64,000 nt of DNA from Faecalibacterium sp. I3-3-89 (GTDB lineage Bacteria > Bacillota > Clostridia > Oscillospirales > Ruminococcaceae). The stretch lies in assembly GCF_023347275.1 (NCBI RefSeq), contig NZ_CP094468.1:1426001-1490000 (forward strand), in the 5' to 3' direction. A program made the position numbers and the translations under genes. Below, piece by piece: positions 3,143-60,390 of this stretch; positions within the stretch are counted from its first letter, which is position 1, and each line of letters begins with the position of its first letter. The notes below the pieces were generated by a model that ran no database searches, was not told where the DNA came from, and saw nothing but the letters and a program-made list of their open reading frames with translations.

Positions 3143-4459
3143 TTACTCAGCGTCAGCGGTCTTCTCGGCCTCAGCGGCCTTCTCCACGACATTTGCGTGG
3201 CTCTTGATGAAGTCGATCGCCTTATTGATGGCCAGATCGTGCTTCACCTCATCCACGTTGATCAGCTCGCGGACCTTGTCCTCTTCCATCTTGTACTGGT
3301 CAGCAATGCGCTTGACCTCGGCATTCAGCTCGTCCTCAGTGGCCTCGATGTTCTCGGCAGCTGCGACAGCCTCCAGAGCCAGACGGATCTTGACCTGCTT
3401 CTCAGCCTGCGGCATGAAGGAAGCGCGGAACTGATCGACGGACTGGCCCATATACTTCAGGTAGTCCTCGAGGCGCAGGCCCTGCTGCTCCATACGGAAA
3501 GCAAAGTCGTTGACCAGCTCGTCCATGCGGACATCATACATGGCCTGAGGGATCTCAGCCTCCATGCCCTCGATGACCTGATCGACCAGAGCGTTCTCGA
3601 CGGCCAGATCATCCTGCTTGTCCAGCTGCTCCTGATTGTTCTTGCGGATGGAAGCCTTGAACTCGTCCAGAGTGTCGTACTCGGAGCAGTCCTTTGCCAG
3701 CTCGTCGTCCAGAGCGGGCAGCTCCTTGTACTTGACCTCGTGCAGCTTGATCTTAAAGACAGCGGGCTTGCCAGCCAGCTCGGCAGCCTGATACTGCTCG
3801 GGGAAGGTGACGTTGACGTCGAACTCCTCACCAGCAGCGTGGCCGATGATCTGATCCTCGAAGCCGGGGATGAAGCTGCCGCTGCCCAGAGTCAGGCTGT
3901 AGTGCTCTGCCTTGCCGCCCTCGAATGCAACGCCGTCCACAAAGCCCTCGAAGTCGATGTCAACGATGTCGCCGTTCTCAGCAGCGCCCTCACGGGTCAG
4001 CTCACGGGCGTTGCGCTCCTGCACACGCTTCAGCTCGGCCTCGACAGCCTCGTCAGAAACAGTATGGACCGTCTTCTCGACAGTCAGACCGTTGTAAGCG
4101 CCGATCTTCACCTCGGGCTTGACTGCGACCTTGACGGTCAGGGTAGCGCCCTCAGCCTCACTGGCGGAATCGACGGAGACCTCAGGACGGCCCACCGGCT
4201 CGATACCGGCAGCCTTGACAGCCTCTTCGTAAGCTGCGGGGAACAGCTCGTTGATGGCGTCATAGGTAAAGACATCAGCGCCGTACATCTTCTCGATCAG
4301 AGCCTTGGGAGCCTTGCCCTTGCGGAAGCCCTGAACAGGGTACTTCTTGCCCTCCTTCTTGAAGACATCGGCAACTGCTGCCTTGAAGGCCTCAGCGTCG
4401 ATGGAGAACTGCAGCTCTGCCATGCTCTTCTCGAGCTTTTCGCACTTGATGAAATTCAT
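3143..4459 (-). CDS. tig: trigger factor (ribosome-bound chaperone, peptidyl-prolyl isomerase)
   Basis: Trigger factor binds nascent chains at the ribosome exit. The 438-residue protein has the N-terminal ribosome-binding domain, including the GFRKGKAPK signature, a central FKBP-type PPIase domain (residues about 150-245) and an alpha-helical C-terminal domain rich in Glu/Lys/Ala. The frame is open for 21 codons further upstream, but GGAGG sits just before the ATG at 4459 and MNFIKCEKLEKS is the conserved beginning, so that start is chosen. An extended -10 promoter lies about 140 bp upstream. Confidence 0.97.
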   Translation of the reverse strand: MNFIKCEKLEKSMAELQFSIDAEAFKAAVADVFKKEGKKYPVQGFRKGKAPKALIEKMYGADVFTYDAINELFPAAYEEAVKAAGIEPVGRPEVSVDSASEAEGATLTVKVAVKPEVKIGAYNGLTVEKTVHTVSDEAVEAELKRVQERNARELTREGAAENGDIVDIDFEGFVDGVAFEGGKAEHYSLTLGSGSFIPGFEDQIIGHAAGEEFDVNVTFPEQYQAAELAGKPAVFKIKLHEVKYKELPALDDELAKDCSEYDTLDEFKASIRKNNQEQLDKQDDLAVENALVDQVIEGMEAEIPQAMYDVRMDELVNDFAFRMEQQGLRLEDYLKYMGQSVDQFRASFMPQAEKQVKIRLALEAVAAAENIEATEDELNAEVKRIADQYKMEEDKVRELINVDEVKHDLAINKAIDFIKSHANVVEKAAEAEKTADAE

Positions 4460-50280: not shown

Positions 50281-50310
50281 TTCACGCAGGAAACAGGGCG
50301 ATTCGCGCAG
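50281..50310 (+). promoter_or_regulatory. 9-bp direct repeats, LytTR-type site, before the phase-variable gene
   Basis: TTCACGCAG (50281-50289) and TTCGCGCAG (50302-50310) repeat with a period of 21 bp, ending 6 bp before the -35. The same arrangement lies before the lipoprotein gene at 60 kb. Confidence 0.6.
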
Positions 50311-50316
50311 GTTTTA

Positions 50317-50345
50317 TTGATTTTTCCCCGCAAATGTGGTACATT
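50317..50345 (+). promoter_or_regulatory. promoter of the phase-variable repeat protein
   Basis: -35 TTGATT (50317-50322), 17-bp spacer, extended -10 TGGTACATT (hexamer 50340-50345), 62 bp before the ATG at 50408. Confidence 0.65.
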
Positions 50346-50407
50346 CAGGACAGTCAGACGTTCCCTGTTTTTACCACTTATTTTCACCATTCAAAGGAGG
50401 TTTTTGT

Positions 50408-52335
50408 ATGTTGTCTTATCGTAAGCTTGCGATGCGTGTTCTGGGTCGGCCTCTCCATACGGGGGGGGTAACGATTCACCCCGTCCGGCCTCTCAGCGGG
50501 CAGCGGCGTTTATCCTGACTGCCGCTCTGCTGACCGGGGCGGCCTTCCCCGCCTTTGCAGGCACCTATTATATTGAGGATGGCGACATCGTCATCTCGGC
50601 AGGTACCGAGGCCGGCACCAACAAGGTGGAGCAGACCGGCAAGGATACGGTCGACAACGATAAGGACACCGTCATCACAAATCATGACAAGGACACCGCT
50701 TCTTCCAACACCGTGACCATCGACGCCAAAGACGAGGACGATAAGGTAGAGGTCACGCTCAAAGATGTAAACATCGACGCCAGCAGAGGGAGCGAAGCCG
50801 CCGTGAGCGTGACCGGCAAGGGCGATACCAATATCGAGCTGGATGGCGACAACGAGCTGAAGAGCGGCGCTGGCCATGCCGGATTGGAGTACAACAAGAC
50901 CGACACCAGCGGCGAACTGACCATTCAGGACAAAGATAAGAACGGCAGTCTGGACGCTACCGGTGGATTCAAAGGCGCAGGCATCGGCAGCGCTGGCAGC
51001 AATGACACTCAGGTAAAGATCACTGGCGGCAATATCACGGCCACCGGTGACGATTGGGGTGCAGGCATTGGCAGTGGTTCCGACGGCAACGGCACGGACG
51101 GTACGGCTTATGTAGAGATCACCGGCGGCGAGATCAATGCGACCGGCGGTTATTTAGGCGCTGGCATCGGCGGCGGCTGCAACGGCAGCGGCAATGTGAC
51201 CATCAGCGGCGGCACCATCACTGCCGTAGGCGGTGGTGACGGTGATGACAGTGGCGGCGGCGCGGGCATCGGCGGTGGTTATTATAACGGTGCGACCGTT
51301 ACGGTAACCGGCGACGCTGTTATTAAAAATGCATCCAGCACGAAATACGGTGCAGGCATTGGCGGCGGTTATGGCCACGACGGTGATGTGACGATCTCCG
51401 GCAATGCAAAAATTGAGAATGTGACCGGCGGCTACGGTGCGGCAGGCATCGGCGGCGGCGCATTTAGTTCCCCCGATAAAATCGGCAACGGTAACGTGGT
51501 CATCAAGGATAATGCCGAAATCGACAATGTGCAGGGCGGCGCTTATGGCGCAGGTATCGGCGGTGGTATTTTTGGTCTCGGCAATGTGACCATCGAGGGC
51601 AACACCAAAGTCAACGCTGCCGGAGGCGCAGGCGGCGCGGCCATCGGCGGCGGTGCTGGCGCTAAAAACAGCAGCAATAACAATGGCAATCAAATCACCA
51701 TCAAGAGCAATGCGAACGGCAGTCCCACCGTCAAAGCGGTCGGCGGCGGTACAGATGAAGAGGAAGAAATCGTTATTGGCGGCGCGGGCATCGGTGCTGG
51801 CTGCGAAAGCGATGCAGATGCCGACATCACCCTCGAGGGCAAAGTGACTATCACAGCCACCGCTGGAAAAGACAATGTTGCCATCGGTGCCAACGGCATC
51901 GAGCAGGAGTTCTCCGGCCTTGCTGAGGGCAGCTCCATCACCCGTTACAACTCCGAGGGCAACAACATCACCCTCCCCACCGACCCTGTTCCTGCGGTTC
52001 CCTCCGCGTCGGGCGGCGGCTCTGCGGACGCCTCTGTGCAGGAGTCGGTCTTCCCGGGTCTCGTCGTCACCGACAAGGACGGCCAGCGCATCTCCTACAC
52101 CAGCATCCGGGGCAACAACGTCCTCTCTATCCGCGTCGGGCGGTTCACGGCCTCCCTCCGGGCCTCGCTGGCCACCCTGCGTCAGCTGCGGGCTGAGGGC
52201 ATCGATACCATCACCTTCCAGACCATCCTCTGCTCCACCACCCTCTCGGTGGATGAGCTGCTGGCCATGGGCGGCGAGGACGCCGAGGCCGTCCTGACCC
52301 ACCGGCTCACCGCTTCCAGCCTCACCGTGGGCTGA
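50408..52335 (+). CDS. secreted GAGIGGG-repeat protein, frame broken at a run of eight G (putative phase-variable)
   Basis: An ATG at 50408 after AAAGGAGG opens a frame that stops at 50518. One extra G in the G8 run (50461-50468) would join it to the downstream frame, giving a 642-residue protein with a signal peptide (FILTAALLTGAAFPAFA, then GTYYIEDG). The rest has about nine repeats of roughly 30 residues, each with GAGIGGG followed by a V-T-I-x-G-G strand, which suggests a beta-solenoid, and a C-terminal domain (residues about 540-642). No LPxTG or membrane anchor is seen. The shortest unbroken frame starts at 50626 and lacks the signal. As sequenced it is off; a sequencing error in the run is the alternative. 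Confidence 0.75.
50461..50468 (+). repeat. homopolymer G8 tract (slippage site)
   Basis: Eight consecutive G inside codons 18-21 of the gene. Nine G restores the full frame; seven G gives an immediate TAA; eight G stops at codon 37. Confidence 0.85.
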
Positions 52336-59661: not shown

Positions 59662-60285
59662 CTAAAATATGATGACCATCGCGGCGTATGTTTTATCGCC
59701 TTTCTGGAACGTACCAGCGTATAGTTCAGCGTTATTTATATTGAGGGATTTCAATTGAGCTTTTAAGAAAGAATACTTTGTCAGACGAGAGTCATAGGAA
59801 GGCACACCAGTATCAGGATCAGGCCCTCGATCCTTATAGCTACCTACGTAAATCATCCTGTGACCCGGATCAGTAACCGCTGTCCCGTCGGAGGAAGGCC
59901 ATTCCATCACGTCCACGCATAACTGCTGGTTTAACAATTTGTCTTTCATGATGGATCCGAGCGCAGCATCTATAGCCGGCTTGTTCACCAACTCGCCGTC
60001 GATGAGCCATTCCGCGTCAAATTTTTTTGCCACTGCCTCAAGCGTCTCCTTGGCCTTGTCGCTTACTGTGGTTTCAGAAAGTTCCAAATACGCCTTGAGC
60101 GGCTCGAGCTTATTGTTAAGCTCCTCGGACTCCCTCACAAGGCCCTTTTCGCTGCCGTGGGAAGCGCTGCCGCTCCCGCTGCCAAAGAACCAGTCGTAGA
60201 GGTCCTCCAGCGGTGCGCAGGCGGTGAGGGTCGCTGCGGTCATCACGCCCGCGAGGGCGAGGGCAAGGAATTTTTTCCGTTTCAT
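59662..60285 (-). CDS. putative lipoprotein of unknown function
   Basis: The 207-residue protein starts with a lipoprotein signal (MKRKKFLALALAGVMTAATL) and lipobox LTAC, so it should be anchored to the membrane exterior. A Gly/Ser linker and a helical region (residues about 45-95) follow; no family is recognised. The ATG at 60285 follows GGAGG. A consensus-like promoter and LytTR-style direct repeats lie upstream, shared in style with the phase-variable gene at 50 kb. Confidence 0.8.
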   Translation of the reverse strand: MKRKKFLALALAGVMTAATLTACAPLEDLYDWFFGSGSGSASHGSEKGLVRESEELNNKLEPLKAYLELSETTVSDKAKETLEAVAKKFDAEWLIDGELVNKPAIDAALGSIMKDKLLNQQLCVDVMEWPSSDGTAVTDPGHRMIYVGSYKDRGPDPDTGVPSYDSRLTKYSFLKAQLKSLNINNAELYAGTFQKGDKTYAAMVIIF

Positions 60286-60325
60286 GGTCGTTACCTCCAT
60301 TCGTGCGATGTGTTTCGGTAGCTCT

Positions 60326-60354
60326 ATTATAACTTGCCTCGCCGCCCCCCGCAA
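60326..60354 (-). promoter_or_regulatory. promoter of the lipoprotein gene
   Basis: Minus strand: -35 TTGCGG (60349-60354), 17-bp spacer, -10 TATAAT (60326-60331). Confidence 0.7.
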
Positions 60355-60360
60355 GTGCGA

Positions 60361-60390
60361 TTCACGCAGATTTCAAGGCCTTTCACGCAG
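60361..60390 (-). promoter_or_regulatory. 9-bp direct repeats, LytTR-type site, before the lipoprotein gene
   Basis: TTCACGCAG (plus strand, 60361-60369) is repeated at 60382-60390, period 21 bp; the near copy is 6 bp from the -35. Relative to the gene it is in the opposite orientation to the site at 50281-50310. Confidence 0.6.

Follow-up and report, generated by a model that had tools for sequence, protein, structure and literature searches.

A gene that is closed by a stop after 36 codons of its own leader, with a long frame following in another register, raises the question of whether it is broken, wrongly read or switched off. The locus considered here lies on the forward strand of the window, i.e., the whole 64-kb stretch of Faecalibacterium DNA that was analyzed. 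Its start codon (ATG, 50408) is preceded by the ribosome site AAGGAGG (50394–50400), and a promoter-like pair, TTGATT (50317–50322) and TACATT (50340–50345) with a 17-bp spacer, was read further upstream and has a similar counterpart in a paralogue of the same genome. The original prediction had described all three elements as intact; this was verified for the start and ribosome site, while the promoter ahead of the leader is plausible rather than strong. The leader frame, MLSYRKLAMRVLG..., which is kept in relatives, was translated as MLSYRKLAMRVLGRPLHTGGVTIHPVRPLSGQRRLS and ends at a TGA (50408–50518), as had been proposed. A run count confirmed exactly eight G at 50461–50468, the proposed slippage site, which is the sole G8 or C8 in the window. 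Behind it, a frame of 621 codons plus stop (50470–52335) runs out of the leader register, and coordinate arithmetic agreed with the claim that one added G gives a protein of 642 residues.

The post-tract frame contains one stop, at its end, and the other two forward frames over the same stretch contain 20 and 24. One reverse frame over this stretch has only 2 stops and 392 open codons; such a near-open reverse frame in GC-rich DNA means that the openness of the post-tract frame alone proves little. Neither ATG, GTG nor TTG occurs in this frame from its opening at 50425, after an upstream stop, to 50626, a stretch that holds three CTG and some ATC or ATT codons. The secreted product is therefore without a usual start of its own. 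The translation begins with a hydrophobic signal-sequence core ending in AFA (50500–50559), in line with the signal peptide expected behind the tract, and the residues PAFA are invariant across the 10 aligned family members. The following body (50560–51969) was assigned to a beta-solenoid by Pfam, an AlphaFold2 model and its repeats. Nine repeats of the GAGIGGG type ([GA][AG][GA]IG[GAS][GA]) were counted between 50974 and 51801, where about nine had been predicted, and the beta-solenoid-like character attributed to them is borne out by a match to PF18889 (Beta_helix_3) of 48.2 bits, above the cut-off of 27. All 10 aligned members matched PF18889 at E 1 or better. The AlphaFold2 model, built on the ten-sequence alignment, was strand-rich and solenoid-like with a mean pLDDT of 84. 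A conserved C-terminal domain (GLxVTDxxGK ... SVDELL, 52051–52332) was located from the same ten-member alignment, and was modeled as strands and two helices. LPxTG was absent from the translation as inspected by eye, and PHROGs and NCBIfam gave no match for this protein.

A comparison of the family profile with the PDB gave one sequence match, Cthe_2159 of Clostridium thermocellum (4peu, E 9e-5), a carbohydrate-binding beta-helix protein of Pfam PF14262. This protein was also the first fold match of the model, but a weak one (Foldseek E 0.26). PF14262 matched one of the 10 family members (1.8e-5) and did not match the window protein, which differs from Cthe_2159 in this respect. With a single PDB sequence match, a weak fold match and PF14262 in 1/10 members, binding of glycan or another carbohydrate by this family is only a lead.

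Relatives carry the tract at several lengths. The contig search yielded one relative, F. longum (G012), and no same-species strain, own or very near genomes possibly having been omitted from it. The syntenic F. longum orthologue, whose four neighbor proteins are 90, 97, 93 and 97% identical to those of the window locus, has G9 with nearly the same flanks, and its leader is open to the end of a 631-residue protein. The paralogue at 1536 kb of the own genome is closed with G8, and its syntenic F. longum counterpart (G012:C24) is open with G7 and an altered 3′ flank. Both states are thus present at the same kind of locus, closed with G8 at two own loci and open at both syntenic F. longum loci. 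Further members carry G11 (G011, open), G14 (G030, closed) and, in a very long member that exceeds 2000 codons before its stretch ends (L125, G012:C1), C9 after the same leader (closed). The seven coding-tract members of the genus hence read G7, G9 and G11 when open and G8, G8, G14 and C9 when closed. The original prediction would have fallen if all relatives showed G9 or if the downstream frame had degraded in them; the lengths are as diverse as listed, and the downstream frame shows no degradation. When the 31 genus genomes were searched for a ribosome site-ATG-N25–55-G8 pattern, seven distinct places were found, five of them in the beta-solenoid family, and the reversed control gave 0.

The tract is not always in the coding frame. 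A census of the family, which took in part of the weak family matches from the genus search at E 1e-10, gave 19 frames past the filter, of which 7 have a coding tract, 7 a promoter tract and 5 none; L134 (promoter C7) and L014 (no tract) were added to these, and L029 is truncated where its stretch ends. Eight members therefore combine a promoter tract with an open leader, namely two with C9 and one with G11 in G007, one with C7 in G015, one with C11 in G014, one with G11 and a second gene with C7 + C6 in G002, and L134 with C7 in G011. Six examined members have no run of at least seven at either place (two in L095, two in L133, L136 and L014); two each belong to the own genome and F. longum, one to G011 and one to G024. 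The tractless copies in the own genome and F. longum carry another leader, MRLKSALRRGV, and in L095:2429–6329 two tandem solenoid genes with this leader and without a tract were seen. In L137 (G028), two family-like frames are broken otherwise than by a leader G tract, and one of these broken frames has C10 just inside its opening. A family match at E 1e-10 was obtained in 10 of the 31 genus genomes, and the remaining 21, some of which are incomplete, had none. At the family level, 2 of 198 genomes matched at E 1e-20, both Faecalibacterium, in a sample that included at least three Faecalibacterium genomes and at a threshold that leaves room for weaker relatives. Viral contigs, searched by protein and by DNA pattern, and phage records gave no match.

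We consider it probable that the window locus is a slipped-strand ON/OFF contingency locus of a secreted beta-solenoid family, caught in the OFF state. As is typical of such loci, a pure homopolymer between the leader and signal sequence sets the frame by its length, the length varies between orthologues with kept flanks (G8 versus G9; 7–14 in the family), and in-frame and out-of-frame alleles (3/7 versus 4/7) occur with the gene behind them intact (dN/dS 0.35). Among the points against a contingency locus is the shortness of a G8 tract for rapid switching. In the proposed mechanism, the promoter, ribosome site and conserved leader would stand ahead of the poly-G, with the signal sequence and mature protein behind it. 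Slipped-strand replication errors would add or remove G residues, and the leader would be joined to the rest at in-register lengths only, all other lengths leading to the 36-residue peptide. A fraction of the cells would then make the full protein and the remainder the short peptide. The full product would be displayed in the cell envelope, where it might bind glycan. We infer the replication mechanism, the switching within a strain and the envelope display from the sequence.

The main rival is an error of assembly or base calling, in which case the true tract is in register and the gene simply intact. Homopolymers are error-prone, G-tract lengths differing from the reference are described in PMC9187656, and both own G8 copies could have been miscalled alike. 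However, 15 of the 19 G/C runs of at least eight in the own genome, a single contig of 2.816 Mb, were called at nine or more, which indicates that this assembly does not generally cut runs at eight. Assemblies of other species also display both states (G9 open and C9 closed in G012, G11 open in G011, G14 closed in G030), and a miscall at the window locus would leave the tract-length differences among relatives intact. We regard such an error as unlikely.

A fixed pseudogene, closed by an old slippage event and now decaying, appears very unlikely. The features that speak for it are the missing family match in 21/31 genus genomes, the two G028 frames broken without a leader tract, and the dN/dS near 1 of the paralogue. 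The latter was 0.845 (0.609–1.105) for the 1536-kb paralogue against its F. longum orthologue, again without stops, and this pair is evolving with almost no constraint as judged from the ratio. The window gene itself gave a dN/dS of 0.350 (bootstrap 0.248–0.480) against its open F. longum orthologue over 606 codons at 88% identity, with no stops. If the window copy had been dead since the split, 2.5–3.7 stops would be expected, and 0 were seen (P 0.03–0.08), so that the absence of stops by itself is weak evidence that the gene is alive. On the dN/dS of the window pair, which carries the main weight, together with the absent stops of the 621-codon frame, the gene seems to have closed recently or reversibly. 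In addition, two loci are shut at the same kind of tract and not by scattered lesions, which is unusual for decay, though gene conversion may have copied the closure. Identity between the window gene and the paralogue is 93% in the 130 bases that precede the ATG and 98% in the first 108 bases, comprising the leader, tract and signal start, as compared with 81% and 92.5% for the same two stretches between the window gene and its syntenic F. longum orthologue. This pattern points to gene conversion between the two own-genome copies at the switch end of the gene. With promoters and leaders closer to each other than to the F. longum orthologues, the two G8 copies are not independent.

Programmed slippage of RNA polymerase or the ribosome, which does occur on runs in bacteria and for which a pure G tract at a fixed place would be suited, would yield a constant small amount of the full protein from unchanged DNA, but it is highly improbable when some relatives are in register and others are not, and when the tract of eight members is part of the promoter, a place at which recoding would serve no purpose.

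How readily a G8 run arises by chance was estimated by shuffling. Dinucleotide shuffles of the window gave an expectation of 6.8 G8 runs versus the one seen, and shuffling of synonymous codons in 15 window genes gave a mean of 0.52 G8/C8 runs, with at least one run in 44% of shuffles. In these 15 genes, 52 of 500 Gly codons are GGG, and GGG-GGG accounts for none of the 68 Gly-Gly pairs; the open register of the window gene would place two GGG codons in a row. A G8 as such is within chance for DNA of this kind; what exceeds chance is where it lies and that it recurs in relatives.

The beta-solenoid family accounts for 2 of the 19 G/C runs in the own genome, and 8 of the 19 sit between TTGACA and TAnnnT. 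These eight promoter runs, G8–G12 in length (L078, L079, L081, L087, L088, L089, L092 and L093; at 719, 753, 1082, 1998, 2171, 2455, 2630 and 2776 kb of G000), each stand before a small lipoprotein gene, and the genes behind them form a candidate phase-variable set. Their spacers are 16 to 23 bp, which would fit promoter switching. The TTGACA-Gn-TAnnnT promoters precede lipoprotein genes in 8/8 cases versus 0/24 for control promoters with an ORF, a contrast in which starts, lipoboxes and signal sequences were called by crude rules. A signal or membrane sequence was found behind 2/24 control promoters (Fisher 4e-6 for 8/8 versus 2/24), where the control required TATAAT and a 15–19 bp spacer, a form unmatched to the tract promoters, and chance intragenic matches may flatter the contrast. 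The control comprised 30 loci of 50 places, which gave 29 promoters, 24 of them with an ORF. The lipoprotein behind the 719-kb run had a match only in the own genome among the 31 searched.

Across the genus, 16 of 31 genomes contain the tract-promoter pattern, and the reversed control gave 0. The loci examined contained 30 distinct tract promoters, of which 27 have an ORF, 21 a lipoprotein and 23 a lipoprotein or signal sequence; of the four misses, three (L107, L110 and L120) have a Tat lipoprotein start that the rule had misplaced, and they are still counted as misses. Genes for lipoproteins were found behind the other-species tract promoters of L096, L102, L106 and L114. Near-identical lipoprotein promoters in G027 (L108:2699, the second promoter) and G030 (L111:1501) have G8 versus G10 and spacers of 16 versus 18 bp, with flanks almost unchanged, a difference that does point to switching. 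The pair L079/L104, with G10 and G9, kept a 16-bp spacer and gave no sign of switching. These two promoter pairs are too few for a verdict. A promoter of the form TTGACACC-G9/10-TATG.. recurs in G001, G003, G004, G006, G008, G010 and G016; several of these promoters are ahead of lipoprotein genes, and some are near contig ends. In G001 it occupies eight places, all with G9, which counts against fast variation there, and both G9 and G10 are present in each of G006 and G010. The idea that the TTGACACC-G9/10-TATGCTATAAT promoters are rRNA promoters, with the poly-G as a plain element, was rejected, as Rfam detected no rRNA in the six loci examined (L096, L098, L101, L106, L107 and L109).

Just upstream of the window promoter lies a direct repeat, TTCACGCAG-N12-TTCGCGCAG (50281–50310), found by a pattern search and LytTR-like in its layout. 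Written as a pattern, TTCACGCAG-N12-TTCRCGCAG stands just upstream of the −35 element. With one mismatch allowed, the whole genome contains 5 forward, 0 reverse and 0 control places. They are located at the window gene, the paralogue, two lipoprotein-like genes and, about 60 bp from its start, a gene for a LytTR response regulator (PF04397) at 908 kb. The repeat is reversed relative to the gene at the two lipoprotein-like genes and the LytTR gene. One of these repeats is in the window at 60361–60390, near a lipoprotein-like gene (59662–60354) and opposite in orientation to the switch locus; the repeats at L094:3014–3043 and L095:10040–10069 are likewise opposite to it. That a LytTR protein binds the repeat and regulates the gene is a guess.

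A broader reading, which we put forward tentatively as possible but a little short of probable, is that envelope phase variation in the genus would operate in two modes. Promoter tracts of dozens of lipoprotein genes would make up one and the solenoid coding tracts the other, with cassettes shared by gene conversion and partly one LytTR regulator.

Homopolymer switches located in a promoter spacer exist, as exemplified by porA. Coding homopolymer switches are described for Neisseria, Campylobacter and Mycoplasma in PMC9187656. Faecalibacterium resembles these systems in having envelope genes with a homopolymer in or early in the coding frame, or between −35 and −10; it is unlike them in that one protein family carries the tract at either place depending on the member, and in that the own-genome tract promoters precede lipoprotein genes. 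A closer likeness is offered by Bifidobacterium breve UCC2003, in whose sortase-dependent pilus loci, bbr_0113 and bbr_1889, the G tracts are annotated as G11 and G10 (Penno et al. 2022, PMC9187656). There, the first ORF has a start and the second lacks active initiation, the tract length decides whether they are read jointly, and the mix of tract lengths was determined in a single culture and underwent a shift in mice. Both cases involve a gut commensal and a pure G tract inside a surface-protein gene with a split ORF. They differ in phylum and protein family, and the length variation here was seen only between genomes. In B. breve, the tract is preceded by a Sec signal and followed by LPXTG, whereas the window gene has its signal sequence behind the tract, a beta-solenoid and no LPXTG. 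The original prediction had presented the switch as new for this lineage. The lineage and gene family stand as new, while G-tract switching of a surface protein in a gut commensal was already known from PMC9187656. Homopolymer phase variation in Faecalibacterium was not encountered in titles or abstract starts among the matches listed, and a term search of PMC11792537 gave a single mention of phase variation, which concerns a Bordetella phage and its host. The principle is known, and, as far as the literature search reaches, the Faecalibacterium lineage, the solenoid family and the mixed coding and promoter placement are new.

In the human colon, Faecalibacterium ranks with the most abundant producers of butyrate. 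Random switching of its surface proteins, if real, would mean that strains taken to be identical have different surfaces and perhaps unequal adhesion, sensitivity to phages and recognition by the immune system; annotation pipelines may also record genes of this type as broken. If the two-mode system is real, every population would be a mosaic of surface types, perhaps answering phages or IgA. As tract lengths are directly readable in deep sequencing, the idea is easy to test.

Other runs were observed in the own genome. G23 (L077:2999–3021) and G11 (L090:2958–2968) each occur right after a T run, and the former may be an assembly artefact. G10 (C10 as given, L086:3002–3011) lies near the start of a 395-residue ORF, which is open in the assembly and has no match in Pfam or PHROGs. 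Two G9 runs (C9 as given, L084:3000–3008 and 3670–3678) lie inside adjoining open genes for two transferases of a type that occurs in envelope-sugar clusters, one a hexapeptide transferase and the other an acyltransferase, and are candidates for further switches.
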